This document shows positions 2,970 to 22,671 of a DNA stretch of 22,753 bases, piece by piece. A program made the translations under genes and the position numbers. Position 1 is the stretch's first letter. The number at the start of each line of letters is the position of its first letter. The notes beneath the pieces are model-generated. The model had not been told where the DNA came from. It did no database searches and saw only the letters and a list, made by a program, of their open reading frames with translations. This stretch comes from Clostridia bacterium (GTDB taxonomy: Bacteria > Bacillota_A > Clostridia > Oscillospirales > Acutalibacteraceae). Where the stretch lies: assembly GCA_017435305.1 (NCBI GenBank), contig JAFSFH010000003.1, forward strand, positions 1 to 22,753, given 5' to 3'.

Positions 2970-3026
2970 ATAGGATGGTATACCCTGGAGTACTATGCAG
3001 TGCTATATAATATTACATAACATAGA

Positions 3027-3055
3027 CTTCGGTACAGTAACGAATTCTGTCGAAG
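3027..3055 (+). promoter_or_regulatory. Leader hairpin directly before the protease RBS
   Basis: CTTCG (3027-3031) pairs with CGAAG (3051-3055) and ACAG (3034-3037) with CTGT (3047-3050), with a 2-nt bulge and a 9-nt loop. The RBS AAAGGA (3056-3061) begins at the next base and lies 8 nt from the ATG at 3070. The hairpin could tune initiation on this very long message; no ligand-binding fold is recognisable. Confidence 0.4.
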
Positions 3056-3069
3056 AAAGGAAACCGTTC

Positions 3070-6000
3070 ATGAAAAAGACACACACCACTCACATTCTGC
3101 GCTCCTGCCTGAGCCTGTTGCTGGCGGCTGTTATGCTGGTCAGCATGGTGCCGGCGGTGCTGGCCACCGATGGTGCTGCAGAAACCACCGTCCAGAACGG
3201 CAATATTCAGCTGCTGGACGGACTGAAGTTCGATTATTCGGACTATCTCAACAGCGAGGTGGCCTTCCGCCTGCCGGACGGCATCGCTGAGGATGAGGAG
3301 ATATCGGTCATTATCCGTCACGACGTGCCGTCGCTGATGGACGCCTATGACAAGACCGATAAAACTATGAGCCTAAAGGAGTATGCGACCACCGACGAGG
3401 CGGCTGAGGTGCTCCGCCGTATCCGCACCCGTCAGGAGGCCATCCTGACCGCTCTGGACGAGCAGGGCGTGGAGTACGAATTGGGCGAGGAGTACGATAC
3501 GCTGTTCTCCGGCTTTGAGCTGCTGATCAAGGGTGGCGACTATACCGTCACCTGTATGACCATGGCAGACGGCGAGAGCGTGGTGCTGGGCAACAAGTAT
3601 AAGCCCCAGGAGGCTCAGCTGGTGGAGAACGACGTTAACGTGTACGAAACCGGTATCTTTAACGCCTCCGACGTGCCCTATGACGGCACCGGTATGGTGG
3701 TGGCGGTTCTGGACACCGGTCTGGACTCCAATCACTCCGCTTTCTCTCTGGATAATTTCACATCCGATCAGCTGGGTCTGACCTATGAGGACGTTAAGAA
3801 GCTGGTGGGCAAGACCAAGGCATATGAGTGGGCCAAGGGTCTGTCCGTTGACGATGTGTTCATCAATAATAAGGTTCCTTTCGGCTACGACTACGCGGAT
3901 AACGACCCCGACGTGTATTCCACCCACAACAACCACGGCACCCACGTGTCCGGCGTCATCGTAGGTAAGGACGATACCATTACCGGTGTGGCGCCCAACG
4001 CCCAGCTGGTGTCCATGAAGATCTTCTCCGACGTAGAGGATTCCGCCATGAGCTCCTGGATCCTGGCGGCTCTGGAGGATTGTGTGATTCTGGGCGTGGA
4101 CGTTATCAATATGTCCCTGGGTACCGCCTGCGGCTTTGACCACGAGACCGAGGAGGAGCTGCTGGACGGTGTGTACGACCGCCTGCGTAAGGCGGGTATC
4201 GCCGTTGTGGTGGCCGCCTCCAACTCCTACAACTCCGCCTACGGCTCCGAGGCCAACGGTAACCTGCCCTTGACCTCCAACCCCGACAGCGGCACCGTGG
4301 GCTCCCCCGGCACCTACGCCGGCACCCTGTCTGTGGCGTCGGTCAACGGCGTGGAGACCCCCTATATCAAATACGGCGATTCCATCATCTACTTCGATGA
4401 GGCCAATGACAACGCCGGTAAAGAGAAGCACTTCTTCGACACCCTGCTGGGTGACGTCGAGGGCAAGCAGATCGAGTACGTGACCGTCCCCGGCGTGGGT
4501 CGTTCCGCGGACTACACCGGTCTGAACGTCAAGGGCAAGATCGCGCTGGTGCGCCGCGGCTCCAACACCTTCGAGGAGAAGGCGCTGATCGCCGAGGCCC
4601 AGGGCGCGGTGGGTATCATCATCTACAACAACGTGTCCGGTGAGATCAAGATGAACATCGGTGACGCCACCCTGGCGGTGTGCTCCATCTCTCAGGACGA
4701 CGGCGAGGTGCTGGCGGCTGCCGGCTCCGGTATGCTGAACATTGACAAGTCCCAGACCTCCGGTCCCTTTATGTCCGACTTCTCGTCCTGGGGTCCCACC
4801 CCCAGCCTGGGCATTAAGCCGGAGATCACCGCCCACGGCGGCAACATTCTGTCCTCGGTGACCGGCGGCGGCTACGACCGTCTGTCCGGTACCTCCATGG
4901 CCTGTCCCAACACCGCCGGTGCGGTGGTGCTGATGCACCAGTACGTGGTGGAGAATTTCCCCGAGATCGCCGACGACCCCGGTGCTGTGACCGCGATGGT
5001 GAACCGCCTGATGATGTCCACCGCCGACATCCTCATCAACACCAACGGACAGCCCTACGCGGTGCGTAAGCAGGGCGCCGGTCTGGCCAACCTGCTGTCC
5101 GCCACCAAGACCCCTGCCGCCATCATCACCTACGATAAGGACGGCAATCCCATGGACACCACCAAGCTGGAGCTGGGCGACGACCCGGACAAGAAGGGTG
5201 TCTATGAGATGACCTTCGCCGTGGACAACTTCAGCAAGAAGCAGCTGATGTACAACGTGTCCGCCAGCATCATCACCGAGGGCGTGTCCGATACCAAGAC
5301 CAACGCCGGTGAGACCACCGTGACCGAGCAGGCTCACGTGCTGGAGGGTGCCGAGATGGAGATCCTCTCGGTGGACGGCGGCACCAAGCTGGGCAACAAC
5401 GTGATCGTCGGCAAGGGTAAGCAGGCCACCGTTAAGGTGCGCATCACCCTCAGCGACGAGGATAAGAAATATCTGGATGAGTCCTTTGAGAACGGTATGT
5501 ACGTGGAGGGCTTCATCTCTCTGGAGGCCAAGCTGGGCACCAAGATCGACCTGAGCGTTCCCTATCTGGCCTTCTACGGCGACTGGACCCGGGCGCCTAT
5601 GTTCGACCTGGAGTACTACGACACCAACGCCGACGAGCTGGACGACGGCATCGACCCCGAGGATAAGCTGATGGCGGATTCCTTCCCCTCCCGTGCGGTG
5701 GGCGGCATCTCCAGCGACTTCGTCAGCTATCTGGGCTCTTACTACTTCGTGCAGGATCCCGACGACGTGGTCATCTCGGCTAACAAGGATTACATTGCTC
5801 TGTCCAACCAGACGGGCTCCATCTGCTCCCTGCGCTTTGTATGGGCGGGTATGCTCCGTGCCGCCAGCTCCATCGACATCACCATCACCGACGACGCCAC
5901 CGGCGAGGTGGTGTTTGAGACGGTGGAGAAGGACGTGCGTAAGTCCTATGGTGACGGCGGTACCATCCGTCCCTCCAACATCGAGATCGAGTTTAACGTG

Positions 6001-9000
6001 CAGGAGCACAACCTGGCCAACAACGCTCACCTGACCGTTAAGCTGGTGGGTCACATGGACTACGGCGACGGCGGCGAAAAGGCCAACCGCAGCCGCACCA
6101 TGGAGTTCCCCATGACCATCGACTTCGAGGCCCCCACCATCAGCGACGTGGAGTACTACTACGAGTACGATAAGACGGCTAAGAAGAATAAGCTGTTTGC
6201 CAAGGTGGCGGTGTACGATAACCACTACGCCATGTGCGGCCAGCTGGGCTACGTTAAGATGTCCACCGATGACGACGGCAACGAGGCTCCCGAGCTGGTG
6301 GCCTTCGAGCAGTTTATGACCCCCATCTATTCCAAGGAGAACAGCACCACCTACGTCACCCTGGATCTGACCGATTACGTCTACACCATTAAGGATGACG
6401 CGGTGAACAAAAACTCCTTTGTCTTTACCACCTACGACTATGCGCTGAACTACGCCTCCTACGAGATCCGCCTGCCGGACTCCTTTAAGAAGTTCACCTT
6501 TGAGGGTCTGGAGGAGGGTCTGACCCTCAGCCCCAACGAGGTATACACCCTGGCCCCCATCGTGGAGCCCAGCACCTCCTGGAGCGAGCTGCTGGAGTTC
6601 AAGTCCTCCAAGCCCAGCGTGGTCCGCGTGGTCAACAACAAGCTGGTAGCCGCCAAGTCCGGTCGCGCCATCATCCGTGTCACCGATCCGGAATCGAAGC
6701 TCAAATACACCTTCCCCGTGACGGTGCTTAAGGAGGGCGACGAGGGCTATCGTCGCTACGACAAGCCGGTGGCGGATATGTTCATCCTGACCGGCTACAC
6801 CACCCAAAAGGCGTACTACATGCTGGAGAATGAGGATAAGGATATCGGCGACACCGGTAACATCCGCTTCTTCGAGGGTAAGTACAACCTGTCCATGTAC
6901 CCCTCCGAGTCGGTGGTGCTGAATATGGATATGGATCCCTTCTATCCCCGTGATACGCAGGTGATCTTTGAATCCAGTAACGAGGACATCGTCAAGATCA
7001 CCTCCTCCGGACAGGTCACCGCGGTGGCAGAGGGCTTCGCCTCGGTCACCGTCAAGATCCAGCAGGACGGCAAGAACACCTTCTACTCCGAGTCGGTGTC
7101 CGTAGAGGTCAAGGATCCCTACGACGTCACCGGCGGCATCCTGAACCACTACTACGGTCTGGGCGGTCTGGTAGAGGTGCCCGCCCGCCTGCGGCTGAAG
7201 GAGATCGGCAATTTCGCCTTTGCCAACTTTGAGTACATTGACAAGACCCCCGAGGAATTGGAGCGGGACGACCGCGAAACCACCAAGCAGTGGTTCATCG
7301 GTGACGGCACCGTCACCAAGGTGGTGCTGCCCGAGGGCATCGAAAAGATCAACGCCTACGCCTTTGCCAATCTGACGGCGCTGGAGGAGATCGTACTGCC
7401 CTCCACCCTGACCGCCATCGAGTACGGCGCGTTCTACAACTGTACCTCGCTGAAGAAGATCACCTTCAGCGGCGATAACAACCTGCAGATCATCAACCAG
7501 AACGCTTTTGAGAAGTGTGACCTGGAGGGTACGCTGGAGCTGCCCTCCGCCTGCGTGATCTCCGATTACGCCTTCGCCGGCAATAAGAAGCTGGAGAAGG
7601 TGGTCACCGGCGACAGCCTGCTGTCCATCGGTCAGTACGCCTTTGCCGGCTGTGAGAGCATCGCCGAGGTCACCGTCACCGCCAAACTGGTCAAGTACGG
7701 CGGCTACGCCTTCACCGGCTGTGAGGAGCTCAAGAAGTTCTACGTCAACTCCGTGGTGCTGCCGGAGGGTATGTTCTACGAGTGCGAAAATCTGACCGAG
7801 GTCACCATCGGTCCCGACGTCAACACCATTGACGAGTTTGCCTTCCGCGACACCGACGTCAAGACCCTGATCGTCAAGTCCGGCAACAAGGCCTTTAAGA
7901 CCGGCAAGAACGGCTACGTTCTCTCCAAGAACGGCAAGACGCTGGTGGCCGTAGCCCCCACCGTTAAGGGCAAGGTGGACGCCGAAACCTTCGGCGGCGC
8001 CAAGATCACCGAGGTGGGCAAGGGAGCCTTCTCCCACACCAAGCAGGTGACCTCCGTGAACCTGCCGGAGGTTACCAAGGTGGGCGACTACGCCTTCGGC
8101 TCCGCCAGCGGCATTAAAAAGGTGACGCTGGGTGAGCTCAAGCAGATCGGCGAGTACGCCTTCTTCGAGACCGGCATCACCCGCCTGCCCGCCTTTACCG
8201 CCAAGACCAAGATCGGCAAGTATGCCTTTGCCTTCACCGCCATCAAAAAGGTGACCGTACCGGATAAGATGAAGGTGGAGGAGGGCGTGTTCAGCGAATG
8301 CGCCGACCTGGAGACGGTTGTGGTGGGTGACAACGTCACCCTGGGCAAATACGCCTTCGGTATGGATAAGGACAGCGCCTTCACGGTGGAGCGCACCGAG
8401 ATCGACGGCAAGCGCTATTTCTACTACACCTTCGGCACCGCGCTGAAGAGCGTGACCATCGGCGAGAATGCCGACATCGGCGAGACCGCCTTTACCAATG
8501 CCGCCAGCCTGAAAAAGGTCACCCTGGGCAAGGGCGCCAAGCTGGGCAAGATGGCGTTCTACAACAACGCCAGCCTGGAGGAGATCGACCTGTCTGCCGT
8601 GACCGAGCTGGGCGACTACGCCATGTCCGGTGACGTGTACTATATGTGTCTGGACGACCAGATGAGCGTGGCGGCGGTGGATAACACCGGTCACTATATG
8701 TACACCTATCACTCCCCCCGCATTAAAAAGGCGGATCTGTCCGCCGCCAAGAGCGTGGGCGAATACGCCTTCGCCTATTGCCGCGATATGGTCAGCGTCA
8801 AGCTGAACGATAAGATCACCGAGATAAAGCCCTACACCTTCGCCGGCTGTGAGAAGCTGCAGAGCGTCAATCTCGCCGCCGTCAAAACGGTGGGCGAATA
8901 CGCCTTTACCGAGTGCGGCAACCTGCGCAAGGCGGACCTGTCCTCCGCCAAAGAGATCGGCGAGTACGCCTTTGTGTACAACCGTAAGCTGAACAACGTG

Positions 9001-12000
9001 ACCTTCAATCCCAAGGGCGCTACCATTGACGAGGCTGCCTTCTCCTACTGCGATATTCTCAGCAAGGTGGAGAATCTGGACAAGGTCACCTCCATCGGCA
9101 ACTACGGCTTCGCCTACTCCGCTCTGACCGAGGCGGTCCTGACCGACGTCGAGCACATCGGCGACCACGCCTTCCTGAAGGAGGAGTACACCCCCTTCAA
9201 GGTGACGCTGGGCGAGGAGCTGGAGACCATCGGCGACAACCCCTTTGCTATGTGTATCATCGCCCCCTTCACCGCTGAGAAGGAGGAGAAGGTGAACGGC
9301 GTCCGCCAGACGGTCACCACCGACACCTTCGACCTGAATAAGAACGTCACCGTGTACGGCGGCTCGCTGTACGGCAAGGTGCCGGAGGGCTGGGAGCTGA
9401 TCACCTATCTGGGCAAGGATCCCCTCAAGGCGACCGTGATGGATAACACCGTCCGCGTATCCGCCATGGCCTTTGTAGGCGCTGACGTGAAGCTGGTGGA
9501 TCTGCCCTATACCGTGTCCGCTGTGGGTCACAAGGCGTTCTACGACTGTGACCGGCTGGAGATGGTGGTATTCAAGAGCTACCGTGCCCCCGTGCTGGAG
9601 GAGGCCTTTGATCCCACCTACTACGAGAGCTACACCCACGTACCCGGCACCGGCGACTACGGCACCTACACCGATTACAACGGTGAGGAGGTCGCCATCA
9701 CCGGCGAAGGCATCCTGCCCTACTTTATGTGGAATGCCACCGGCGGTATGTACTCCAACGTGTTCTACGGCGCCAACTTCAAGGATTACGTTGGCTACGT
9801 CAAGGACAAGGTGGCGATGATCCGTCCCACCAACGGCATTAACTACGATTCCTACATTTACAACCAGTACTTTGACCTGCGTCTGGACGGCACCATCGCC
9901 GCCGAGGATTACGCCGTGGCCGCCATTAAGGCGATCGAGGCGTTGCCAGAGCGGGTGACTGCGGAGCATCGCCCCTTGGTCAAGGCCGCCCGCGCCGCCT
10001 ACGATAAGGTGCCCACCACCCTGCAGCAGGGTCTGGTGTACAACTATTCCGACCTGGTTACGGCCGAGCAGCGCCTGGCGGCGCTGGATAAGGCCGAGGA
10101 GGAGCCCGAGACTGAGCCGGTGGAGGAGGAGAAGCCCTCCTTCGCCTGGATCTGGTGGACGCTGCTGGGTCTGGTGATTGCCGCGGCGCTGATCGGTCTG
10201 TGTGTGCTGGCCTATCGCATCAAGTACGGCTTCACCTCCGAGGAGGACGTGGTCAACGCGGTGAAGACCGCTCCCCGCCGCTTCTGGAATTGGTGCAAGA
10301 CCGTCCCCGGTAAGTTTATCGCCTTCTGCAAGGCGTTCCCCGCCGGCTTCGTCCGGTTCTGGAAGAACTTCGGCTGCGGCTTTGTCCGCTTCTTTAAAGC
10401 GTTCCCCGCCGGCTTTGTGAAGTTCTTCAAGGAATTCCCCGGCAAGTTCATCGCCTTCTGCAAGGCGTTCCCCGCCGGCTTTATCCGCGTGTGCAAGACG
10501 GTGGCTCACTGGTGCGTCGTCGCCGCTCTGGCGGTGGCCGCCCTGGCACAGCTGCTGTGGCGCGACCTGAAGAAGCTGGCTCTGTGGGTGTGGCCCTACA
10601 TCAAGAAGGCCGCCCTGTGGGTATGGGGTCTGCTGAAAAAGCTGTACGCCCTGTGCGCCCCCGTGCTGGATCCCGCCATCGCCTTTATCGTTAAGATCTG
10701 GGGCATCGTGGCCGCCTTTGTGGTCAAGATCTGGCGCATCGTCGCCGCATTCTGCGGCAAGGTGCTGCGTCCCGTGGGCGCCTTCTTCAAGAAGATCGGC
10801 TGCGCCGTGGGCGCCTTCTTCCGCAAGGTGTTCCCCAAGCGGGAGAAAAAGGAAAAGCCCGCGAAAGAGCCCAAGCCCGCCAAGGAGCCCAAGCCCCGTA
10901 AGGAAAAGAAACCCCGCAAGGAGAGAAAGCCGCTCCCCGTCTGGATCAAATGGGTGCTGATGGGCATCGCTGCGGCGGCGGCGGTGGCTCTGCTGGTGTG
11001 GTGGCTCGCCACCGCGGATTTCGGCGGCGTTAAGACGCCCTACGAGATCAACGACGAGGTCAATTACACCGTCAGCATTAAGTTCGATGCCAACGGCGGC
11101 ATCTTCACCACCAACACCGACGTGATGGTGGACTCCTACAACGTGTCCGATATGCCTGTGGGCGCCGACGGCAAGGTGTCGTTGGCCCTGCTGGCGCCGG
11201 ACAACGTGCAGGTGCGCGGAAAGGGTAATGCGTTTACCGCCTCCAAGACCGGCTGTATGCTGGCCGGCTGGTACACCCAGCGCACCGAGAGCGGCACCGA
11301 CGCCGACGGCAATCCCACCTACACCTACAGCGGTCTGTGGGATTTCGCCGCCGACCGTCACGCTGTGGATCCCAGCGGCACCTACACCAGCGCCGAGCCG
11401 GTGCTGACCCTGTACGCCGCCTGGGTGCCCAAGTTTGAGGTGCAGTTCTACGACCGCAGCAACCCTGACACCCTGCTGGGCAGCCACGAGTGCAGCACCC
11501 TGGGCGAGACCCTGACCCTCCCCGTATGGAACGAGGAGACCGGTGCTATGGATATGAACGACGTCCCCGAGCGCAACGGCTACACCTTTGATAAGCTGTA
11601 TCTGGATGCCGAGGGCAAGCAGCCTGTCACCGACGGCGTCATCACCCACACCGGCACCCTGAACGCCGACAACGGCACCGCCGAGGGCGCCGTGATGAAG
11701 GTGTACACCGACTGGGTCGAGGGCGAGTGGTATCACATCTACACCGCCGAGCAGTTCATTAAGAATGCCAGCGTCAACGGCTCTTACGTCCTGCACGACG
11801 ATCTGGACTTTAACGACAAGTATTGGCCCGACTCCCTGATGACCGGTAATTTCGCCGGCACCATTCAGGGCAACGGTCACGTCATTCGCAACGTGACCCT
11901 GGAGCAGAGAAACTCCTCTAAGACCAACGTGGGTCTGTTCGGCACCATCACCGAAAAGGCCACCATCACCGACGTCACCTTCGAAAAGGTCACCCTGACC

Positions 12001-12285
12001 ATTAAGAAGGGCGCTATGAAGGTGGGCAGCTCCTTCGGCGTGCTGTGCGGCACCCTGTCCGACAAGGCCACCCTCAAGGGCGTGACCCTCAAGGACAGCA
12101 GCCTGCTCATCGACTCCGGCTGCTACTTCGGCACCGACGATTACGCCATCGGTCTGGTGTGCGGCATCGGCGATGGAGATGCCGTCAAGGCTCAGGACGT
12201 TACCTGCTCCGCCACCGGCGAAAAGCCGTCCCGCGTGAAGATCAAGGTGGACGGCAACACCGTAACTCTGGAATTCGTGGATTGA
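3070..12285 (+). CDS. Giant multidomain S8 (subtilisin-family) cell-surface protease
   Basis: This 3071-aa protein starts with a signal peptide (1-33). A propeptide-like region (about 85-195) precedes an S8 catalytic domain (about 205-660) with D215 (VLDTG), H289 (HGTHVSG), oxyanion N385 and S609 (SGTSMACP). A PA domain is inserted at about 473-551. The order resembles lactocepin/C5a-peptidase-type envelope proteases. After it come Fn3-like strands (about 710-850), two Big_2-like Ig domains (about 1140-1222, 1290-1350), a long BspA-type LRR_5 array (about 1372-2180), a helical segment (2274-2341), an acidic linker, TM1 (2359-2383), 14 amphipathic 11-mer repeats (2399-2589), a Lys/Pro-rich stretch (2589-2623) and TM2 (2627-2649). 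Two B-repeat-like units (2666-2883) and a GLUG-like beta-helix end (about 2889-3071) complete it. The catalytic residues appear intact. The start at 3070 gives RBS, signal peptide and normal spacing; an upstream ATG at 2995 has none of these. Only 33 bp separate it from the binding-protein gene. Confidence 0.92.
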   Translation: MKKTHTTHILRSCLSLLLAAVMLVSMVPAVLATDGAAETTVQNGNIQLLDGLKFDYSDYLNSEVAFRLPDGIAEDEEISVIIRHDVPSLMDAYDKTDKTMSLKEYATTDEAAEVLRRIRTRQEAILTALDEQGVEYELGEEYDTLFSGFELLIKGGDYTVTCMTMADGESVVLGNKYKPQEAQLVENDVNVYETGIFNASDVPYDGTGMVVAVLDTGLDSNHSAFSLDNFTSDQLGLTYEDVKKLVGKTKAYEWAKGLSVDDVFINNKVPFGYDYADNDPDVYSTHNNHGTHVSGVIVGKDDTITGVAPNAQLVSMKIFSDVEDSAMSSWILAALEDCVILGVDVINMSLGTACGFDHETEEELLDGVYDRLRKAGIAVVVAASNSYNSAYGSEANGNLPLTSNPDSGTVGSPGTYAGTLSVASVNGVETPYIKYGDSIIYFDEANDNAGKEKHFFDTLLGDVEGKQIEYVTVPGVGRSADYTGLNVKGKIALVRRGSNTFEEKALIAEAQGAVGIIIYNNVSGEIKMNIGDATLAVCSISQDDGEVLAAAGSGMLNIDKSQTSGPFMSDFSSWGPTPSLGIKPEITAHGGNILSSVTGGGYDRLSGTSMACPNTAGAVVLMHQYVVENFPEIADDPGAVTAMVNRLMMSTADILINTNGQPYAVRKQGAGLANLLSATKTPAAIITYDKDGNPMDTTKLELGDDPDKKGVYEMTFAVDNFSKKQLMYNVSASIITEGVSDTKTNAGETTVTEQAHVLEGAEMEILSVDGGTKLGNNVIVGKGKQATVKVRITLSDEDKKYLDESFENGMYVEGFISLEAKLGTKIDLSVPYLAFYGDWTRAPMFDLEYYDTNADELDDGIDPEDKLMADSFPSRAVGGISSDFVSYLGSYYFVQDPDDVVISANKDYIALSNQTGSICSLRFVWAGMLRAASSIDITITDDATGEVVFETVEKDVRKSYGDGGTIRPSNIEIEFNVQEHNLANNAHLTVKLVGHMDYGDGGEKANRSRTMEFPMTIDFEAPTISDVEYYYEYDKTAKKNKLFAKVAVYDNHYAMCGQLGYVKMSTDDDGNEAPELVAFEQFMTPIYSKENSTTYVTLDLTDYVYTIKDDAVNKNSFVFTTYDYALNYASYEIRLPDSFKKFTFEGLEEGLTLSPNEVYTLAPIVEPSTSWSELLEFKSSKPSVVRVVNNKLVAAKSGRAIIRVTDPESKLKYTFPVTVLKEGDEGYRRYDKPVADMFILTGYTTQKAYYMLENEDKDIGDTGNIRFFEGKYNLSMYPSESVVLNMDMDPFYPRDTQVIFESSNEDIVKITSSGQVTAVAEGFASVTVKIQQDGKNTFYSESVSVEVKDPYDVTGGILNHYYGLGGLVEVPARLRLKEIGNFAFANFEYIDKTPEELERDDRETTKQWFIGDGTVTKVVLPEGIEKINAYAFANLTALEEIVLPSTLTAIEYGAFYNCTSLKKITFSGDNNLQIINQNAFEKCDLEGTLELPSACVISDYAFAGNKKLEKVVTGDSLLSIGQYAFAGCESIAEVTVTAKLVKYGGYAFTGCEELKKFYVNSVVLPEGMFYECENLTEVTIGPDVNTIDEFAFRDTDVKTLIVKSGNKAFKTGKNGYVLSKNGKTLVAVAPTVKGKVDAETFGGAKITEVGKGAFSHTKQVTSVNLPEVTKVGDYAFGSASGIKKVTLGELKQIGEYAFFETGITRLPAFTAKTKIGKYAFAFTAIKKVTVPDKMKVEEGVFSECADLETVVVGDNVTLGKYAFGMDKDSAFTVERTEIDGKRYFYYTFGTALKSVTIGENADIGETAFTNAASLKKVTLGKGAKLGKMAFYNNASLEEIDLSAVTELGDYAMSGDVYYMCLDDQMSVAAVDNTGHYMYTYHSPRIKKADLSAAKSVGEYAFAYCRDMVSVKLNDKITEIKPYTFAGCEKLQSVNLAAVKTVGEYAFTECGNLRKADLSSAKEIGEYAFVYNRKLNNVTFNPKGATIDEAAFSYCDILSKVENLDKVTSIGNYGFAYSALTEAVLTDVEHIGDHAFLKEEYTPFKVTLGEELETIGDNPFAMCIIAPFTAEKEEKVNGVRQTVTTDTFDLNKNVTVYGGSLYGKVPEGWELITYLGKDPLKATVMDNTVRVSAMAFVGADVKLVDLPYTVSAVGHKAFYDCDRLEMVVFKSYRAPVLEEAFDPTYYESYTHVPGTGDYGTYTDYNGEEVAITGEGILPYFMWNATGGMYSNVFYGANFKDYVGYVKDKVAMIRPTNGINYDSYIYNQYFDLRLDGTIAAEDYAVAAIKAIEALPERVTAEHRPLVKAARAAYDKVPTTLQQGLVYNYSDLVTAEQRLAALDKAEEEPETEPVEEEKPSFAWIWWTLLGLVIAAALIGLCVLAYRIKYGFTSEEDVVNAVKTAPRRFWNWCKTVPGKFIAFCKAFPAGFVRFWKNFGCGFVRFFKAFPAGFVKFFKEFPGKFIAFCKAFPAGFIRVCKTVAHWCVVAALAVAALAQLLWRDLKKLALWVWPYIKKAALWVWGLLKKLYALCAPVLDPAIAFIVKIWGIVAAFVVKIWRIVAAFCGKVLRPVGAFFKKIGCAVGAFFRKVFPKREKKEKPAKEPKPAKEPKPRKEKKPRKERKPLPVWIKWVLMGIAAAAAVALLVWWLATADFGGVKTPYEINDEVNYTVSIKFDANGGIFTTNTDVMVDSYNVSDMPVGADGKVSLALLAPDNVQVRGKGNAFTASKTGCMLAGWYTQRTESGTDADGNPTYTYSGLWDFAADRHAVDPSGTYTSAEPVLTLYAAWVPKFEVQFYDRSNPDTLLGSHECSTLGETLTLPVWNEETGAMDMNDVPERNGYTFDKLYLDAEGKQPVTDGVITHTGTLNADNGTAEGAVMKVYTDWVEGEWYHIYTAEQFIKNASVNGSYVLHDDLDFNDKYWPDSLMTGNFAGTIQGNGHVIRNVTLEQRNSSKTNVGLFGTITEKATITDVTFEKVTLTIKKGAMKVGSSFGVLCGTLSDKATLKGVTLKDSSLLIDSGCYFGTDDYAIGLVCGIGDGDAVKAQDVTCSATGEKPSRVKIKVDGNTVTLEFVD
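10264..10887 (+). repeat. Tandem 33-bp (11-residue) repeats inside the protease gene
   Basis: Seven consecutive units of the type K-x-F/V-P-x-x-F-I/V-x-F-C/F/W run from residue 2399 to 2475 (10264-10494). Three LKKLALWVWPY-type units follow at 2500-2532 and four VKIWGIVAAFV-type units at 2541-2584. The 11-residue period holds within every block and Lys recurs once or twice per unit. The segment lies between the two TM segments. Confidence 0.85.
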
Positions 12286-12318
12286 TCCACTCATTAAACT
12301 AGTAAAGGAAGCGATAGT

Positions 12319-14892
12319 GTGAAACGGAAAATTCTTTGTTTGCTGCTGTGCCTGTCTTTGATGATCGGCATGGTCTCGACCTTCTCCGGCTGCGGCAAGA
12401 GCGTGGACGCTTTTGTTATTATGACCGATCAGCCCGAGGGTCTGTTCAACCCCTTCTTCTCTACCTCTGCCGCGGACGGCACCATCGTGTCTATGACTCA
12501 GATCGGTATGCTGTCCTCCAAGTTTGTTGACGGCGAGGTGGAGGTGGCCTACGGCGATGACGAGGCCGTGGTCACCAAGGATTACGAGATCGTGGAGAAC
12601 GACGACGGCACCATCTCCTACTACTTCGTGCTGAAGAACGGCATCCAGTTCTCCGACGGCCATCCTCTGACCATGGAGGACGTGCTGTTCAACTACTACG
12701 TGTATCTGGATCCGGTGTACACCGGTTCCAACACCCTGTATTCCACCGATATTCTGGGTCTGGCGGAGTACCGCACCCAGACGGTCAGCTCCACCAACGA
12801 CGGCGGCAGTGATGCTCTGATCTCTTCTCAGGCGGACACCCGCGCCGACGCCCGTATCAACGAGCTGGTCAACCTGTTCATCTCCGAGCGTGAGGCCTCT
12901 CCCACCAACGAGGTCAGCTATGAGGATATGAAGAAGGCCATCTCTGGCTATTCCGTGTCCTCTGGCTATCAGTCCGCCATCTCCAACAACCCCGAAGAGG
13001 TGACCAACAGCACCCTGCTGATGGACTATGAGACCACCCTGAAGATGTTCAAGGAGGAGCTGTACGACGACTTTGTCAGCGTGCAGGAGTCCTACACCGA
13101 CGAGCCCTATAAGTCCCACGAGGAGTTTAAGGACGAGGTGTTCCGCTTTATGTTCGCCGAGGGCTACGTTGAGGTGGAGTACGCCGAGGACGCCGAGGGC
13201 AAGAAGGATCGCACCAAGATCCAGAAGCTGACCCCCCAGTACCCCAACACCATCAAGGATAAGGATGCGGCCGTCAGCTATGTTTACAACGATATGATCG
13301 CCCGTCAGCTGGACATCATCCTGTACTTCTCGGTCACCGCCGGTGAGCTGAAGACCGACTACGCCGCCAAGGCCCGCGAGCTGATTCTGCACGAGAACAC
13401 CGAGGACGGTGAGCTGGCTGTGCAGAACATCTCCGGTATCGAGTCTCTGGGTCACACCGACGCCGCCGGCAGCACCATCACCGTCAACGGCACCGAGTAT
13501 AAGGTGGCCTCCGATCACAACGAGGACGGCACCGTTAAGAATGCCGACGAGTACGACGTGCTGAAGATCACCATCAACGGCGTGGACCCCAAGGCCATCT
13601 GGAACTTTGCGGTCACCGTGGCTCCCCAGCACTACTACGGCGAGGGCAGCTCGGTGGAGATGGACATCGCCAACAACAAGTTCGGCGTGGAGTATGCCAG
13701 CTTCGACTTTATGAGCGGCATCATCCAGTCCTCCCGCAACGTTAAGCTGCCTATGGGCGCCGGTTCCTATAAGGTGACCAACAACGCCAACGACGACAAC
13801 CCCAGCGAGTCCGATTTCTATAAGGACAACGTGGTCTACTTCAAGGCCAACGATAAGTTCACCACCGTGGGCGAGGGCATTGAGAATGCCAAGATCGACA
13901 AGGTCCGCTATAAGGTGGTTTCCTCCAACAACGCCATCGGCGCCCTGCAGACCGGCGAGGTACACTACATCACCCCCTCTCTGACCGCCGATAACTACGA
14001 TAAGCTGCAGGCCATGGGCAAGGACGGCTACAATATGATCACCACCGATCAGTTGGGCTACGGTTACGTCGGTATCAACGCCAACAAGGTGAACGACATC
14101 AACCTGCGCCGCGCCATTATGTGCGCTATGAACACCTCTCTGGCCATCGACTACTACCGCGTCGGTACCGCCGAGCAGATCTTCTGGAATATGTCCATGG
14201 TCAGCTGGGCGTACCCCACCGATGAGAACGGCGAGTTCATCAAGGACAACGGTCACGACTATCCCATGGCCGATACCTGGAGCGAGGACATCGCCCGCAG
14301 CAACATTGAGAAGTATATGAGCGAGGCCGGCGTGTCCGAGGGCTCCAGCGACCTGAAGATCACCTTCACCATCGCCGGCTCCACCCTGCAGGATCACCCC
14401 ACCTATAAGGTGTTCCGTGACGCCGCCGCTCTGCTGAACAGCATGGGCTGGGAGATCACCGTGGTGTGCGATACCCAGGCTCTGACCAAGATCTCCACCG
14501 GTTCTCTGGCCGTGTGGGCGGCTGCCTGGTCCTCTGCTCTGGACCCCGATATGTATCAGGTCTATCACAAGGATTCCACCGCCACCAGCACCCTGGCCTG
14601 GGGCTATAACTACCTGAAGAACAGCGGCACCTCTGAGGAATTGGGCATTCTGGACGACCTGTCCGATCTGATCGATGAGGCCCGCGAGACCAACGATAAG
14701 GATGAGCGTAAAGAGCTGTACAAAGAGGCTATGGGCTACATCCTGGATCTGGCGGTTGAACTGCCGGTGTACCAGCGCGACGTGCTGTACGCCTATGACG
14801 GCAACGTCATTAACCCCGACAGCCTGCCCGAGAACGTGAACCCCTATTCCTCTCCCTTGGATCGCCTGTGGGAGCTGGAGTTCGCCAACTAA
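12319..14892 (+). CDS. Oligopeptide-binding lipoprotein of the ABC importer (SBP family 5)
   Basis: This 857-aa extracytoplasmic solute-binding protein has a lipoprotein signal, with Lys/Arg residues 2-4, a hydrophobic core and lipobox FSGC with C25 as the lipid-anchored residue. Family 5 features are visible, including the early FSDGHPLTMEDVLF segment (about 110-125) and a C-terminal VELPVYQRD-type segment. Typical family members have 500-600 residues. The excess is an acidic, helix-prone insertion at about 157-415. Sequence context suggests it captures peptides released by the protease encoded 33 bp upstream; substrate specificity is not readable. The start is a GTG at 12319, supported by AAAGGAA at 12304-12310. 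No terminator separates it from the protease gene. Confidence 0.9.
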   Translation: MKRKILCLLLCLSLMIGMVSTFSGCGKSVDAFVIMTDQPEGLFNPFFSTSAADGTIVSMTQIGMLSSKFVDGEVEVAYGDDEAVVTKDYEIVENDDGTISYYFVLKNGIQFSDGHPLTMEDVLFNYYVYLDPVYTGSNTLYSTDILGLAEYRTQTVSSTNDGGSDALISSQADTRADARINELVNLFISEREASPTNEVSYEDMKKAISGYSVSSGYQSAISNNPEEVTNSTLLMDYETTLKMFKEELYDDFVSVQESYTDEPYKSHEEFKDEVFRFMFAEGYVEVEYAEDAEGKKDRTKIQKLTPQYPNTIKDKDAAVSYVYNDMIARQLDIILYFSVTAGELKTDYAAKARELILHENTEDGELAVQNISGIESLGHTDAAGSTITVNGTEYKVASDHNEDGTVKNADEYDVLKITINGVDPKAIWNFAVTVAPQHYYGEGSSVEMDIANNKFGVEYASFDFMSGIIQSSRNVKLPMGAGSYKVTNNANDDNPSESDFYKDNVVYFKANDKFTTVGEGIENAKIDKVRYKVVSSNNAIGALQTGEVHYITPSLTADNYDKLQAMGKDGYNMITTDQLGYGYVGINANKVNDINLRRAIMCAMNTSLAIDYYRVGTAEQIFWNMSMVSWAYPTDENGEFIKDNGHDYPMADTWSEDIARSNIEKYMSEAGVSEGSSDLKITFTIAGSTLQDHPTYKVFRDAAALLNSMGWEITVVCDTQALTKISTGSLAVWAAAWSSALDPDMYQVYHKDSTATSTLAWGYNYLKNSGTSEELGILDDLSDLIDEARETNDKDERKELYKEAMGYILDLAVELPVYQRDVLYAYDGNVINPDSLPENVNPYSSPLDRLWELEFAN

Positions 14893-14957: not shown

Positions 14958-15953
14958 ATGTTAAAGTATATAGTTAAACGATTGGGTTACGCCATCGTGG
15001 TTCTGCTGGGCGTGTCGTTGATCATCTATTTCCTGACCCGCCTGATGCCCATCGACTTTGTCCGTGACAAAGTGGTGGCCATGCAGACCTCCGGCGCCGA
15101 AGTGACCGCCGAGCAGGTGGAGAAGATGTACCAGGCGTACGGACTGATCGAGAATGCCACCCCGTGGCAGATCTTCCAGGGCTATCTCAGCTGGCTGGGC
15201 GACCTGTGCCGTCTGGATCTGGGCATCAGCTTTAAGTACGGCGTGCCGGTGGCGGAGAAGATCGCTCAGCATATGGGCACCTCCTTTGCCATCGCTCTGA
15301 TCGCCACCATCTTTGAGTTCTTGATCGCCATCCCCCTGGGCATCACCGCCGCCACCCACCAGTATAAGTTCCGTGACTATCTGGTCACCGTGCTGGTGAT
15401 GGTGGGTATCTCCCTGCCCGCCTTCTTCTTCGGTAATATGCTGAAGAGCTGGCTGGCGCTGGATCTGGGCTGGTTCCCTGCCAGCGGTCTGGGCGATGCC
15501 ACCACCACCACGACCGGCATCGGTCTGCTGCTGGACTACGTCCGCTATGCGACGTTGCCGATCCTCACGGTGGTCATCCTGTCCATCGGTGCCCGTATGC
15601 GTATGACCCGTACCAATATGCTGGAGGTGCTGGGCTCGGATTACATCCGCACCGCCCGCGCCAAAGGTCTTAAGGAGAGCGTGGTTATCAATAAGCACGC
15701 CTTCCGCAATACCTTGATTCCGCTGGTGACCTCTATGGCCGGTCTGCTGCCGTCCCTGTTCTCCGGCGCCATCATCACCGAGCAGGTGTTCGACCTGCCC
15801 GGTATCGGTAACATCGCTCTGCAGGCGATGAACGCCGGTGACATCCCCTTTATTATGGGCTACAATATGTTCCTGGCTGTGCTCAGCGTGCTGGGCGTGC
15901 TGCTGGCGGATCTGATGTACGGCATCGTGGATCCCCGCGTCAAACTGGAGTAA
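14958..15953 (+). CDS. oppB: Oligopeptide ABC transporter permease, OppB/DppB type
   Basis: This 331-aa integral membrane protein matches the first permease of peptide importers. It has an N-terminal TM (about 9-28) followed by a family-typical segment with YGLIENATPW (61-70), further TMs near 106-130, 140-165, 196-212, 252-272 and 300-322, and an EAA-type cytoplasmic loop (about 221-240, GSDYIRTARAKGL) that contacts the ATPases. The ending VDPRVKLE is usual for the family. The ATG at 14958 follows AAAGGA at 14944-14949. Dipeptide, oligopeptide or nickel specificity cannot be separated from sequence alone; position after a protease favours peptides. Confidence 0.92.
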   Translation: MLKYIVKRLGYAIVVLLGVSLIIYFLTRLMPIDFVRDKVVAMQTSGAEVTAEQVEKMYQAYGLIENATPWQIFQGYLSWLGDLCRLDLGISFKYGVPVAEKIAQHMGTSFAIALIATIFEFLIAIPLGITAATHQYKFRDYLVTVLVMVGISLPAFFFGNMLKSWLALDLGWFPASGLGDATTTTTGIGLLLDYVRYATLPILTVVILSIGARMRMTRTNMLEVLGSDYIRTARAKGLKESVVINKHAFRNTLIPLVTSMAGLLPSLFSGAIITEQVFDLPGIGNIALQAMNAGDIPFIMGYNMFLAVLSVLGVLLADLMYGIVDPRVKLE

Positions 15954-15966
15954 GGAGGGTGGCTGT

Positions 15967-17034
15967 ATGGAAGAACTGAAATTGAAAGAGCAGGACGTCC
16001 AGGAGCAATCCGTCGACACCGCTGACAACACCCCCCTTGACAAAAACGTGCGGCTGATGTCCCCCACCCAGATGCTGCTGCGGCGCTTTTTCCGCTCCAA
16101 ATTGAGCATCATCGGTCTGGTGATGGTGCTGGGTCTGTTCCTGCTGTGCTTCGCCGGTCCGCTGGTGTATACCCAGTGGGGCGAGACCGAGCTGGATAAG
16201 AGCGGTAAGACCAGCTACGCCACCTCCGAGGTGACCTATGAGGTGGACGGCGTCACCTACGTCATCCAGCAGACCACCGAGACCAAGCTGGCGGACAATT
16301 TCCTGTCTCCGCCCTCTGCCCGCCATCCGCTGGGCACCGACGACCAGGGCTACGACGTGCTGGCTCGCCTGATGTACGGCGGTCGCGTGTCCCTGCTGGT
16401 CAGCTTTATGACCGTGTTCCTGCTGACTCTGTTCGGCGTACTCATCGGCGGCATCGCCGGTTATTTCGGCGGTATGGTGGACAACGTGATCATGCGTGTC
16501 TGCGACGTGCTGATGTGCCTGCCCGGCATCCCGATTCTGCTGATCATCTCCTCCGCCTTTGACGGCTGGGTATCCTTGGGCAGAGTGGAAGAGGACTGGC
16601 GTATCTACGTGCTGATGATGTTCCTGACCTTTATCTCCTGGCCCGGCACCGCCCGTCTGGTGCGCGGTCAGATTCTGTCCCTGCGTGAGCAGGAGTATAT
16701 GGTGGCGGCGGAGGCTATGGGCTATTCCACCGGCCGCAAGATCTTTAAGCATCTGGTTCCCAACGTGATGCCCCAGCTGATCGTGCAGATGTCCCTGAGT
16801 CTGGGTAGTATGATCCTATATGAGGCGTCCCTGTCCTATTTGAATATGGGTATTAAGGCGCCCTACACCGCTTGGGGCTCGATGATCAACATCATCACCA
16901 CCAACCCGGAGATCCTGCAGAACCACCTGTACGTGTGGGTTCCCGCCGGCGTGTGCATCGTCATCGCCGTGCTGGGCTTCAACTTCGTGGGCGACGGTCT
17001 GCGGGATGCCCTTGACCCGAAAGCGAGGCGATAA
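15967..17034 (+). CDS. oppC: Oligopeptide ABC transporter permease, OppC/DppC type
   Basis: This 355-aa second permease has a cytoplasmic N-terminus (1-44), TM1 (about 46-66), an extracytoplasmic segment (67-135) containing HPLGTDDQGYDVLARLMYGG (120-139), which is diagnostic for OppC-like proteins, and four to five further TMs. The EAA loop at about 242-258 reads EQEYMVAAEAMGYSTGRKIF. It ends GDGLRDALDPKARR, as expected. The extracytoplasmic segment carries about 30 extra residues (78-108), rich in Thr/Glu, beyond the family minimum. The RBS AGGAGG overlaps the end of oppB (15954-15959), and the gap between genes is 13 bp, which indicates translational coupling. Confidence 0.92.
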   Translation: MEELKLKEQDVQEQSVDTADNTPLDKNVRLMSPTQMLLRRFFRSKLSIIGLVMVLGLFLLCFAGPLVYTQWGETELDKSGKTSYATSEVTYEVDGVTYVIQQTTETKLADNFLSPPSARHPLGTDDQGYDVLARLMYGGRVSLLVSFMTVFLLTLFGVLIGGIAGYFGGMVDNVIMRVCDVLMCLPGIPILLIISSAFDGWVSLGRVEEDWRIYVLMMFLTFISWPGTARLVRGQILSLREQEYMVAAEAMGYSTGRKIFKHLVPNVMPQLIVQMSLSLGSMILYEASLSYLNMGIKAPYTAWGSMINIITTNPEILQNHLYVWVPAGVCIVIAVLGFNFVGDGLRDALDPKARR

Positions 17035-17037
17035 CTG

Positions 17038-18246
17038 ATGGCTGGAAAGAATGAGAATAAGAATTACCTGTCCGGCCGTGAGATTCGCGCCATCGCCAAG
17101 GCGAACGCCAAGGAGATCAAGCGGCTGGAGGCCTACAAAAACCGTAAGGCCCCCGAGAGCGAATTTTTGTCCGAGATGAAGGACCCCGCCAACATTCTGG
17201 AGATCGAGGATCTGCACACCTATTTCTACACCGAGCAGGGTGTGGTCAAGGCGGTGGGCGGCGTGTCCTACGACGTGCCCAAGCACTCGGTTGTGGGTGT
17301 GGTGGGTGAGTCCGGCTGCGGTAAGTCGGTGACCAGTATGTCGGTGATGCGTCTGATCCAGGGTCCCACCGGTCAGATCGTGGAGGGCTCTATCCGTTTC
17401 CAGTCCTCCGAGTACGTCCGTGACGAAAAGGGCAACCCTGTCACCGACGATCAGGGCAACCTGGTCACCGAGGATAAGGTCTACGACATCGCCAAGATGC
17501 CCATCCACGAGATCCATCGCATCCGCGGCAAGCAGGTGGCGATGATTTTCCAGGAGCCCATGACCTCGCTGAACCCCATCTTCACCATCGGTCAGCAGCT
17601 GGACGAGGTCACCCTCATCCACGTGCCCAACGCCACCAAGGAGCAGGCGAAGGAAAAATCCTATGAGATGCTGCGCTTGGTGGGCATCATCCCCGAGAAC
17701 GTGTATAAGGCGTTCCCCCACGAGCTGTCCGGCGGTATGCGTCAGCGCGTGATGATCGCTATGGCGCTGGCGGCGGAGCCCCGTCTGATTATTGCCGACG
17801 AGCCCACCACCGCGCTGGACGTGACCATTCAGGCGCAGATCCTGGAGCTCTTACAGGATATTAAGAATAAGATCGATGGCTCCATTCTGTTGATTACCCA
17901 CGACCTGGGCGTCATCGCCGAGATGGCGGACTACGTGGTGGTTATGTACGCGGGCAAGGTGATCGAAAAGGGTACCGTCCACGAGATCTTCGAGGATCCC
18001 CGTCACCCCTACACCATCGGCCTGCAGAAGTCCAAGCCCACGATGACGCTGGACGACAACACCGAGCTGTACAACATCCCCGGCAACGTGCCCAACCCGG
18101 TGAATATGCCCTCCTACTGCTACTTTAAGGAGCGCTGTGCCATGTGCACTCACCGCTGCGGCGGCGATTATCCCGAGATGGTGCAGGTGAGCCCCACCCA
18201 CTTTGTGGCGTGCCACCTGTACGGAGAGGAGGCAGAAAATGGCTGA
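17038..18246 (+). CDS. oppD: Oligopeptide ABC transporter ATPase, OppD/DppD type
   Basis: This 402-aa ATPase carries Walker A GESGCGKS (90-97), Q-loop Q172, signature LSGGM (230-234), Walker B LIIADE (250-255), switch H288, and the peptide-transporter C-terminal domain with cysteines C361, C367, C370, C374 and C392. Such cysteines may hold an Fe-S cluster in some OppD relatives; that is uncertain here. It differs from short family members in a basic, helix-prone N-terminal extension (1-50) and an acidic insertion at 125-150 with two similar GNPVTD/GNLVTE units. The gene begins 3 bp after the oppC stop and overlaps oppF by 8 bp, so its translation is tightly coupled. Confidence 0.93.
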   Translation: MAGKNENKNYLSGREIRAIAKANAKEIKRLEAYKNRKAPESEFLSEMKDPANILEIEDLHTYFYTEQGVVKAVGGVSYDVPKHSVVGVVGESGCGKSVTSMSVMRLIQGPTGQIVEGSIRFQSSEYVRDEKGNPVTDDQGNLVTEDKVYDIAKMPIHEIHRIRGKQVAMIFQEPMTSLNPIFTIGQQLDEVTLIHVPNATKEQAKEKSYEMLRLVGIIPENVYKAFPHELSGGMRQRVMIAMALAAEPRLIIADEPTTALDVTIQAQILELLQDIKNKIDGSILLITHDLGVIAEMADYVVVMYAGKVIEKGTVHEIFEDPRHPYTIGLQKSKPTMTLDDNTELYNIPGNVPNPVNMPSYCYFKERCAMCTHRCGGDYPEMVQVSPTHFVACHLYGEEAENG

Positions 18247-19330
18247 TGATAAGGTAACCACCACCGCCGTCGAATACGACGACGCGGCGTTGGCCGCAGA
18301 GTATGCCGCCGCCCGTAAACAACAGATCGAGGAGGATCTGAAGAAGCCCTTCGACCCCGACTGCTTGCTGGAGGTGCGCCACCTGCGCAAGTGCTTCCCG
18401 ATGAAGAAGACCATGCTGGGCAAGGTCACCAAGGAATTGGTGGCAGTGGACGACATTTCCTTTAAGCTGAAGGCGGGCGAGACCCTGGGTATCGTGGGCG
18501 AGTCCGGCTGCGGTAAGACCACCGCCGGCCGTGCGATTCTGAAGCTGCACGAGCCCACCGGCGGTCAGATCATCTTCAACGGTCAGGATATCACCCACCT
18601 GAAGCCCTCCCAGATGCGGGAGGTGCGCAAGCAGATGCAGATCATTTTCCAGGATCCCTATTCCTCTCTGCCTCCCCGTGACACCGTGGGCGGACTGCTG
18701 TCCGAGCCGGTCAAGGTGCACAACATCGTGCCCAAGGAGCAGGTCAAGGACTACGTGCTGGAATTGATGGATAAGTGCGGTCTGCGGGATTACTATTTCG
18801 AGCGGTATCCCCACGAGTTCTCCGGCGGACAGCGCCAGCGTATCTGCATCGCCCGCGCCCTGTCGGTGAACCCCAAGCTGGTCATCTGCGACGAGCCGGT
18901 GTCCGCTCTGGACGTGTCCATTCAGGCGCAGATCATCAACCTGCTGAAGAAATTGCAGCGGGAGATGAATCTGGCGTACGTGTTCATTTCCCACGACCTG
19001 TCGGTGGTTAAGTTTATCTCCGATAAGATCGGTGTGATGTACCTGGGCGGTATGATGGAGTTCGGCAGCAAGGAGGATATTTTCAAGAATCCGTTGCATC
19101 CTTATACCAAGGCGCTGTTCTCCGCCGTGCCCAACCCCGACCCCAACCATAAGATGCAGCGCATCCCGCTGGGCGGCGATATTCCGTCCCCCGCCAACCC
19201 GCCCAAGGGTTGCCGCTTCCACACCCGTTGCCCCTACGCCAAGGAGATCTGCAAGCACGTGGTGCCGGAGTATAAGGAATACGAGCCCGGTCACTTTGCG
19301 GCTTGTCATTTGTTGGAAACCACCGATTAA
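18239..19330 (+). CDS. oppF: Oligopeptide ABC transporter ATPase, OppF/DppF type
   Basis: This 363-aa ATPase is the partner of OppD. It has Walker A GESGCGKT (87-94), Q138, signature FSGGQ (194-198), Walker B LVICDE (214-219), switch H252, and C-terminal CRFHTRCPYAKEIC with a later CH, typical of the family. The segment after the Q-loop reads SSLPPRDTV where many members have SSLNPR. A 40-residue charged N-terminal extension precedes the usual LLEVRHLRKCF start of the domain, as in OppD. The start at 18239 is chosen over an upstream ATG at 18203 because a strong GGAGAGGAGG RBS lies at 18223-18232. Confidence 0.93.
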   Translation: MADDKVTTTAVEYDDAALAAEYAAARKQQIEEDLKKPFDPDCLLEVRHLRKCFPMKKTMLGKVTKELVAVDDISFKLKAGETLGIVGESGCGKTTAGRAILKLHEPTGGQIIFNGQDITHLKPSQMREVRKQMQIIFQDPYSSLPPRDTVGGLLSEPVKVHNIVPKEQVKDYVLELMDKCGLRDYYFERYPHEFSGGQRQRICIARALSVNPKLVICDEPVSALDVSIQAQIINLLKKLQREMNLAYVFISHDLSVVKFISDKIGVMYLGGMMEFGSKEDIFKNPLHPYTKALFSAVPNPDPNHKMQRIPLGGDIPSPANPPKGCRFHTRCPYAKEICKHVVPEYKEYEPGHFAACHLLETTD

Positions 19331-20126: not shown

Positions 20127-20669
20127 TCATTCCTCCATCTGCTTGCCCAAAAACGCGGCGGCCACCTGGGCCAGCCGCACGTCCCCCTCGGAGGGGGCGG
20201 CACCGCTTTCGGGCTGGATGAGGCACACCGCGCCGGTGATGTCGCCGGCGGCGAGGATGGGGGAGGCCACGGCGGCGAAGCGGGTGACCGCCTCCACCGG
20301 CTGCAGGCGGTGGTTGCCGCCGGTGACGGCGACAAAGGACTGGCGGCTTTCCATGACGTCGTCCAGACCTGCGGACACGCGGCGGTCGTAGAATTCCTTG
20401 CGGTTGGGACCGGCGGCGGCGATGACGTGGTCGCGGTCGCACACCAGCACGGTCATATTGCAGGCGCGGGACAGCACGTCGGCATACTGCACCGCAAAGG
20501 GGGACAGCTCCCCCACGGGAGAGTATTTTTTGAACACGACCTCCCCATCCTTCTCGGTAAAGATCTCCAGCGGATCCCCCTCCCGAATCCGCATCGTCCT
20601 GCGAATTTCCTTGGGAATAACAACTCTGCCCAAATCGTCTATTCTTCTCACAATACCCGTTGCTTTCAT
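20127..20669 (-). CDS. spoVT: Stage V sporulation protein T (AbrB-family regulator)
   Basis: This 180-aa protein begins MKATGIVRRIDDLGRVVIPK, the hallmark of SpoVT, with an AbrB-type DNA-binding swapped-hairpin domain (1-50) and a GAF-like domain (about 56-178). SpoVT is the forespore transcription factor that tunes sigma-G-dependent genes, so the organism is presumably a spore former. Length and both domains match the family. The start at 20669 follows AAAGGAG (20679-20685, 9 nt spacing) and replaces a longer frame from 20720. The RBS lies inside a 12-bp inverted repeat, and a candidate sigma-G promoter sits just upstream. No U-tract terminator is seen downstream, where the hairpin cluster begins. 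Confidence 0.95.
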   Translation of the reverse strand: MKATGIVRRIDDLGRVVIPKEIRRTMRIREGDPLEIFTEKDGEVVFKKYSPVGELSPFAVQYADVLSRACNMTVLVCDRDHVIAAAGPNRKEFYDRRVSAGLDDVMESRQSFVAVTGGNHRLQPVEAVTRFAAVASPILAAGDITGAVCLIQPESGAAPSEGDVRLAQVAAAFLGKQMEE

Positions 20670-20674
20670 ATATA

Positions 20675-20729
20675 AAAACTCCTTTGTTGATTTGATAACA
20701 CTTCTATTATCTGTCAGCAAAGGAGTTTT
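20675..20729 (-). promoter_or_regulatory. 12-bp inverted repeat spanning the spoVT RBS
   Basis: AAAACTCCTTTG (20675-20686) and CAAAGGAGTTTT (20718-20729) are perfect complements with a 31-nt loop. On the minus strand the second arm contains the spoVT RBS and is followed by U residues. A transcript coming from the upstream regulator gene could therefore form a stem that ends transcription or hides the RBS. Confidence 0.6.
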
Positions 20730-21471: not shown

Positions 21472-21939
21472 ATGAATCTAAAGTCTAAGAGTATAATACA
21501 ATTAACAATGCAATTATTGGCAGCAGTATTACTGTTTGTTGATGGAACGATTACATACAAGGCCATGCGGTATGACGAGTTTAATTACGATGGTCCCGCA
21601 TCGTTTTTCTGGAAGATGGGTAAGGTAGCTGACAGTCAAATGGTCGGCACCATTGCATTAGCATTTATGATAGTAACGTCATTGATTATTATCTTACAAA
21701 TAGTCAATCAAAAATCATACAAGTTTTCTATTGCCCCAATAATAGTGCAAATTATATGTTTTGAGGTGTTTTTTAACAACTATCTTACTACTGAACCTGG
21801 TTCTATGGGATACCATTTTAATTGCGAAAGAGGTCCGTTATCTTATTTGATTACAGCAATTCTCGTTTTATTTGCAGCATATACATTGATAAGTAATATT
21901 AAAACAAAAGAAGAAATTACTGATGAAAAGAAAAATTAA
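21472..21939 (+). CDS. 155-aa four-TM membrane protein, unknown function
   Basis: Hydrophobic segments lie at about 8-28, 58-78, 84-104 and 122-143, with a charged C-terminal tail (TKEEITDEKKN). Both loops after TM1 and TM3 are probably extracytoplasmic and contain aromatic and acidic residues, including YDEFNYDGPASFFWKMGK (34-51). No family is recognised. Start at 21472 follows GAAGGAAA (21461-21468). The gene is AT-rich like its partners and ends in a 90-bp spacer before a bidirectional terminator. As the partner of a small cytosolic protein under an Xre regulator, it could be a membrane effector, immunity or signalling protein; this is not decided by the sequence. Confidence 0.82.
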   Translation: MNLKSKSIIQLTMQLLAAVLLFVDGTITYKAMRYDEFNYDGPASFFWKMGKVADSQMVGTIALAFMIVTSLIIILQIVNQKSYKFSIAPIIVQIICFEVFFNNYLTTEPGSMGYHFNCERGPLSYLITAILVLFAAYTLISNIKTKEEITDEKKN

Positions 21940-22469: not shown

Positions 22470-22494
22470 ACCAACCACATCCTTTCTTTTCCCC

Positions 22495-22523
22495 ATTATA
22501 TCACCCGGCGGGGCACAATGCAA
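22495..22523 (-). promoter_or_regulatory. Sigma-A-type promoter of the Nudix gene
   Basis: On the minus strand, TTGCAT (22518-22523) and TATAAT (22495-22500) are separated by 17 bp. Transcription would begin near 22488, 19 nt before the chosen ATG at 22469. Confidence 0.75.
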
Positions 22524-22527
22524 ACGC

Positions 22528-22563
22528 AAAAACGCCCTGCGGCAGGGGAAGGACCGCAGAGCG
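22528..22563 (-). terminator. Minus-strand intrinsic terminator upstream of the Nudix promoter
   Basis: CGCCCTGCGG (22533-22542) pairs with CCGCAGAGCG (22554-22563) with one mismatch, and the A run at 22528-22532 becomes a U tract on the minus strand. It would insulate the Nudix gene from a minus-strand gene to the right. Confidence 0.75.
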
Positions 22564-22671
22564 CCTTTGCAGAGCAAGAATAAAAAGAAAGGAGTCAGAA
22601 AGAAGAAAGAGGTAGGGTAGAGCAACAAATCCGAACCCGCCTTAAAGCGGCGGATTTTGGTGCTTTTCACC

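Follow-up and report, generated by a model that had tools for sequence, protein, structure and literature searches.

The window, a stretch of 22,753 nucleotides from a Clostridia bacterium, contains the gene of a large subtilase-LRR membrane protein, which stands first in line before a set of oligopeptide importer genes. Its open reading frame runs from 2995 to 12285 on the forward strand (3096 codons). Translation probably begins at Met26 (ATG at 3070), which has an AGGA motif 8 nt upstream and is also the starting point of the relatives P0001 and P0002; counted from there, the gene (3070..12285) specifies 3071 amino acids, or 336 kDa before processing. Residues are numbered here from position 2995, and differ by 25 from those of a preliminary description of this DNA, which were counted from Met26. 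A 3731-aa open frame spans the subtilase and OppA genes in antisense (3373-14568, reverse strand) and most likely reflects nothing more than G+C-rich codon usage.

The importer genes lie on the same strand as the subtilase gene and encode an OppA-like solute-binding protein (SBP_bac_5; 12319..14892), OppB-like (14958..15953) and OppC-like (15967..17034) permeases, and OppD-like (17038..18246) and OppF-like (18239..19330) ATPases; for the last, the ATG at 18239 is preferred over the listed TTG at 18203. A genome scan with the A3 query found no relative, and OppA was used as query instead. Among the best 80 of 318 OppA relatives on genome contigs, picked by OppA similarity and coming from herbivore-gut or other Clostridia/Oscillospiraceae MAG records, a subtilase relative precedes OppA on the same strand wherever at least 8.5 kb of upstream sequence is available (71 of 71 loci), and OppBCDF follow wherever the downstream sequence reaches 5.5 kb (63 of 63).

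The reverse strand of the window also encodes a membrane 4Fe-4S protein that ends, within the same frame, in a redoxin/thioredoxin-like domain (565-2103), a SpoVT-like regulator (SpoVT_C; 20130-20720) and a NUDIX protein (22086-22670). The G+C content is 0.317 between 21001 and 22000, within a window of 0.53-0.63; this stretch may be a recent acquisition, and it includes a forward ORF (21472-21936) for a hydrophobic protein of 155 aa, in which no Pfam match was found.

Domain organisation of the protease

Pfam searches identify a Peptidase_S8 domain (3685..5082) with a PA domain inserted at 4504-4710, Big_2, and BspA-type leucine-rich repeats, the best of six LRR_5 stretches lying at 8746..9051. 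The closest solved chains to the Peptidase_S8 domain are those of C5a peptidase, chemokine protease C and cell envelope proteinases. Its combination of Peptidase_S8 and PA domains, together with the similarity to C5a peptidase and cell envelope proteinases, places the window protein with the S8 cell envelope proteinases. Streptococcal and lactococcal members of this group typically carry an LPXTG cell-wall anchor; an LPXTG-like anchor (pattern LP.[TSA]G) is absent from the window protein.

Towards the C-terminus, a first hydrophobic segment, TM1 (residues 2384-2406; 10144..10212), is predicted to act as a stop-transfer sequence leading from outside to inside. It is followed by the repeat arrays described below, a Lys/Pro-rich linker (10822..10938), a second hydrophobic segment, TM2 (10942..11010), and an exported C-terminal domain (11029..12282), in which a Flg_new match stays below threshold (25.0 bits against a cut-off of 27). 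All these features are on the forward strand.

The 11-residue arrays

The preliminary description reported fourteen 11-residue units with one or two Lys each between the two hydrophobic segments, and this count holds. Array 1 has seven units with the consensus KAFPAGFVRFC (residues 2424-2500; 10264..10494), array 2 has three of the LKKLALWVWPY type (2525-2557; 10567..10665) and array 3 has four of the VKIWRIVAAFC type (2566-2609; 10690..10821), while the end point given previously, 10887, falls within the Lys/Pro-rich linker. Over residues 2390-2590, identity at lag 11 amounts to 67 matches (z = 13.3 against composition shuffles), the second-best lag being 22 (z = 7.5), and z is 14.8 when the entire cytoplasmic stretch is taken. 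Arrays 1 and 2 are separated by a hydrophobic, Ala-rich stretch (10495..10566), whose counterparts in P0001 and P0002 are broken by Lys.

The preliminary description had also held that homologues in which the period is not kept would speak against its interpretation. The period is kept in array-bearing homologues, and all three array indels between the window protein and P0001 measure 11 residues. There are exceptions, such as P0002, where a 4-residue indel breaks the period and an acidic repeat replaces part of array 3; its indels relative to the window protein measure 11, 4, 11, 14, 10, 5 and 1 residues, the last ones lying at the acidic repeat. With this exception, the arrays are tandem 11-residue repeats in register, as in 11/3 repeat helices.

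Fusion with a neighbouring lipoprotein gene

The C-terminal domain is homologous to the product of a separate lipoprotein gene of relatives. Of the best 80 of 318 OppA loci, ten encode subtilase and C-terminal domain in one frame; the remaining 70 have a subtilase that stops after TM1, hidden by contig ends in a few. The place of the C-terminal domain is taken in 69 of the 70 unfused loci by a separate frame directly before OppA, and a check of these neighbouring frames found a lipobox-like signal in 63 of the 70. Of the remaining seven, four (L014, L023, L026 and L071) are truncated at the start of the contig or short, one has no frame (L078), and two have the separate frame, in which the pattern used found no lipobox (L053 and L076). 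Since the separate gene of relatives has its lipoprotein signal peptide at the equivalent position, TM2 is, judged by position, what is left of such a signal peptide after loss of the Cys. The TM2 region has no Cys at all in the window protein, P0001 and P0002, and a lipobox Cys occurs at TM2 in none of 14 other fused proteins.

On a FastTree phylogeny of 82 rows, in which 20 of the 79 inner branches are open, the fusion requires at least nine state changes. Seven distant relatives (L037, L050, L056, L058, L059, L061 and L063) have the subtilase-lipoprotein fusion and no 11-mer arrays. In the fused relatives L128, L129 and P0002, the segment leading from the array or TM1 to TM2 contains acidic AEETPAEE-type repeats, which replace the Lys/Pro-rich linker or accompany it.

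An arrangement designed as a belt between two transmembrane segments, as first proposed, finds no support in these comparisons: TM2 derives from the fused neighbour gene, and most relatives are array-less. The idea that the array serves as a bridge from TM1 to TM2 was likewise rejected, because unfused relatives (L007, L022 and L031) carry arrays in their C-terminal tails. Since the array is lacking in most relatives, anchoring does not depend on it.

Membrane topology

The preliminary description had placed the arrays in the cytoplasm by the positive-inside rule. Homology leads to the same side: in relatives, the parts flanking the array are encoded by two distinct genes whose products are both exported, so that the ends of the array come to lie in the cytoplasm. 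On a crude insertion scale, array 1 has no transmembrane candidate below 5 in the window protein, against about -2.5 for TM1 and -1.8 for TM2.

The same crude scale leaves room for a partial crossing, in which a transmembrane hairpin made of residues 2504-2522 and part of array 3 would place array 2 outside. Residues 2504-2522 are borderline (about -0.3), residues 2562-2580 score about 1.0, and an even number of crossings would leave both ends outside. However, the Lys-rich array 2 would then be external, the stretch equivalent to 2504-2522 contains Lys in P0001, P0002, L083 and L120, and its score is higher in P0001 (0.3), L083 (1.0) and L120 (1.7), though not in P0002 (-0.2); array 1, moreover, offers no candidate segment. 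We regard such a hairpin as decidedly unlikely, and favour a wholly cytoplasmic array.

Helical geometry

Amphipathic repeat helices of the 11/3 type are known from eukaryotic lipid-binding proteins. Their geometry was compared with that of 18 arrays of four unit types, cut by hand from 13 proteins and folded on 11 columns; these are related rows rather than independent ones. In 15 of the 18, the strongest harmonic is k=3, equivalent to 98.2 degrees per residue or 11/3; array 2 of the window protein and the second arrays of both L083 and L120 depart from this. By column permutation, 13 arrays reach p < 0.05 and five do not. The 11/3 amphipathic geometry proposed previously is thus supported for arrays 1 and 3 of the window protein and for most arrays of relatives, but not for array 2, which is periodic without 11/3 amphipathicity (strongest harmonic k=1, p = 0.34).

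For array 1, coherent summation across its 77 residues gives a moment (0.57) equal to the average of local 18-mers (0.58), which means that the hydrophobic face stays in phase, and the Lys/Arg centre lies 167 degrees away from the hydrophobic centre. Coherent moments of whole arrays likewise equal local ones in the wider set, with Lys/Arg opposite the hydrophobic centre. Of the 139 gaps between successive prolines in 25 distinct arrays of the KPI type, 130 measure 11 residues, eight measure 7 and one measures 18. Five tails of 35-73% identity share invariant Pro and Lys columns, spaced in steps of 11 residues. The angular position of Pro is near +60 degrees in array 1 of the window protein and in the L115/L116 types, and near -100 to -137 degrees in others. 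Because of this variation no single curvature is claimed, and the idea of one curvature imposed by Pro kinks was dropped. Two AlphaFold models draw mostly helix at mean pLDDT values of 35.9 and 46.2, and are not counted as evidence.

Arrays in related proteins

The survey of relatives covered 87 distinct tails, 32 of them too short to test. Ten of the 55 testable tails reach z >= 7 at lag 11, which is the best lag in all ten, and three further arrays were spotted by eye (L091, L115 and L116). The KAFPAGFVRFC unit type is shared by the window protein, P0001 and P0002; KVFAPVGRFLK is found in L007 and L067, FCKPIIDKITT in L022, L031, L091, L121, L122 and L123, and FFKKLPGRTVR in L115 and L116. 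Arrays are present in 12 of the 82 tree rows, with at least five changes of state, by gain or loss. Two fully supported clades mix fused and unfused array proteins (L067 with L007; L134 with L031, L130 and L135). Among unfused tails without an array, 43 of 63 are net acidic.

Rates of substitution could be compared in four of seven pairs, in which dS is finite, the other three being saturated. Array dN/dS is 0.28, 0.32, 0.43 and 0.27, against 0.05, 0.09, 0.26 and 0.26 for the body of the protein; it exceeds the body value in all four, narrowly so in the closest pair (0.27 against 0.26). The array is therefore under purifying selection, though less constrained than the body.

This looser constraint, the differing number of units among relatives, the many array-less relatives and the repeated gains or losses are what would be expected if a short juxtamembrane amphipathic stretch had been multiplied by 33-nt slippage and kept as harmless. 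Several features are hard to reconcile with such a tolerated expansion: array dN/dS is well below 1, the proline gaps of 11 residues prevail across 25 arrays, and the Pro/Lys columns remain invariant in tails as little as 35% identical. In addition, TRF finds 33-nt DNA units matching at 86% in array 3 (10680-10748) and 76% at array 2 (10556-10626), but at only 64% in array 1 (10323-10497), so that array 1 is no fresh duplication and slippage there is not recent. We judge expansion without function to be unlikely on this evidence, and prefer a functional cytoplasmic segment.

Other hosts and known systems

Searched alone, the segment of the window protein had no match among 4506 candidates, all between roughly 129 and 410 aa long, a negative that does not extend to hosts of about 410-1700 aa. 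With limits on length set for whole proteins, the window array matched two proteins and the L031 array 21 more, of 2538-3039 aa and all with S8 and LRR_5 domains; in 15 genomes the two array queries matched subtilase frames only (6 and 4 matches). Within these searches, then, this protease is the only host of the repeat. Pfam searches with three array queries gave no perilipin, apolipoprotein or synuclein family at E <= 10.

The nearest structural parallels are the 11-mer repeats of perilipin 4 (Plin4), apolipoproteins and alpha-synuclein, which one study describes as tandem units plotted as 3-11 helices with a hydrophobic and a polar face (PMC5889406). Those proteins are eukaryotic and fold in a lipid-dependent manner, and a Plin4 33-mer is given there the smallest hydrophobicity among lipid-binding amphipathic helices, whereas the arrays described here are bacterial, tethered to a transmembrane segment, cationic, rich in Phe, Trp and Ile, and mostly provided with one Pro per unit. 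In bacteria, an amphipathic helix is reported to position PlsX of Bacillus subtilis in a region of the plasma membrane (PMC6702220); there a single short peptide belongs to a peripheral enzyme, and is not an 11-mer array. Among open-licence papers, which give weak evidence of absence, no bacterial surface protease with an amphipathic 11-mer tail was found.

The lactococcal cell envelope proteinase shares the S8 and PA domains and supplies peptides to the Opp importer, and a direct handover of peptides from proteinase to OppA has been proposed (PMC7783315). That enzyme is covalently linked to peptidoglycan, while the window protease has a transmembrane anchor, an LRR region, a cytoplasmic array and a fused exported domain, and no LPXTG-like motif.

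The constancy of the Opp genes as neighbours, and the invariant Pro/Lys columns, would also suit a soluble helical bundle, or a site of oligomerisation or docking for a partner such as OppDF, the period then reflecting packing of protein against protein. Yet Opp genes equally adjoin array-less subtilases, unit number and sequence vary widely while the pattern of faces is kept, and the hydrophobic face is rich in Phe and Trp and adjoins a transmembrane helix. A bundle or docking site consequently seems to us very unlikely, and membrane contact the better account.

Functional implications

On balance, and with a little more confidence than doubt, we interpret the array as a cytoplasmic amphipathic segment of a transmembrane-anchored, cell-envelope-proteinase-like subtilase, forming a belt on the inner leaflet. 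The array is predicted to form an 11/3 helix lying on the membrane, with Lys/Arg on one face, Phe, Trp, Ile, Val and Cys on the other and, in array 1 and most first arrays of relatives, a Pro about once per unit. It probably adds contact area on the inner leaflet next to a single transmembrane helix, and this extra contact would hold the 336-kDa protease, slow it and gather it close to the Opp importer, whose genes belong to the same cluster. The sequences themselves show the period, the in-phase amphipathicity, the cytoplasmic side (by homology), the gene cluster, the fusion and the purifying selection, whereas helix formation, membrane contact and retention or clustering are inferred from them. 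Nearness of protease and importer would be a sensible aim given the direct handover to OppA put forward in PMC7783315. In the window lineage, the tail was also joined to the lipoprotein encoded downstream, and the signal peptide of that lipoprotein turned into TM2.

A bolder reading, tentative and in our estimation unlikely, is that giant perilipin-like 11/3 belts evolved several times on the cytoplasmic tail of this protease, with different units and one geometry, most arrays also having prolines 11 residues apart along one side of the helix. The belt would then serve as a physical device for placing or bending the inner leaflet where protease and importer assemble.

If the belt is real, it would represent a transmembrane-tethered cytoplasmic 11/3 repeat in a bacterial surface protease, and the related natural arrays, which differ in length and unit sequence, together with array-less relatives, would form a comparative set for the effects of belt length, charge and Pro spacing on the placement of membrane proteins. 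The family also illustrates repeated fusion of a protease with a neighbouring lipoprotein, in which a lipid anchor is exchanged for a transmembrane one.
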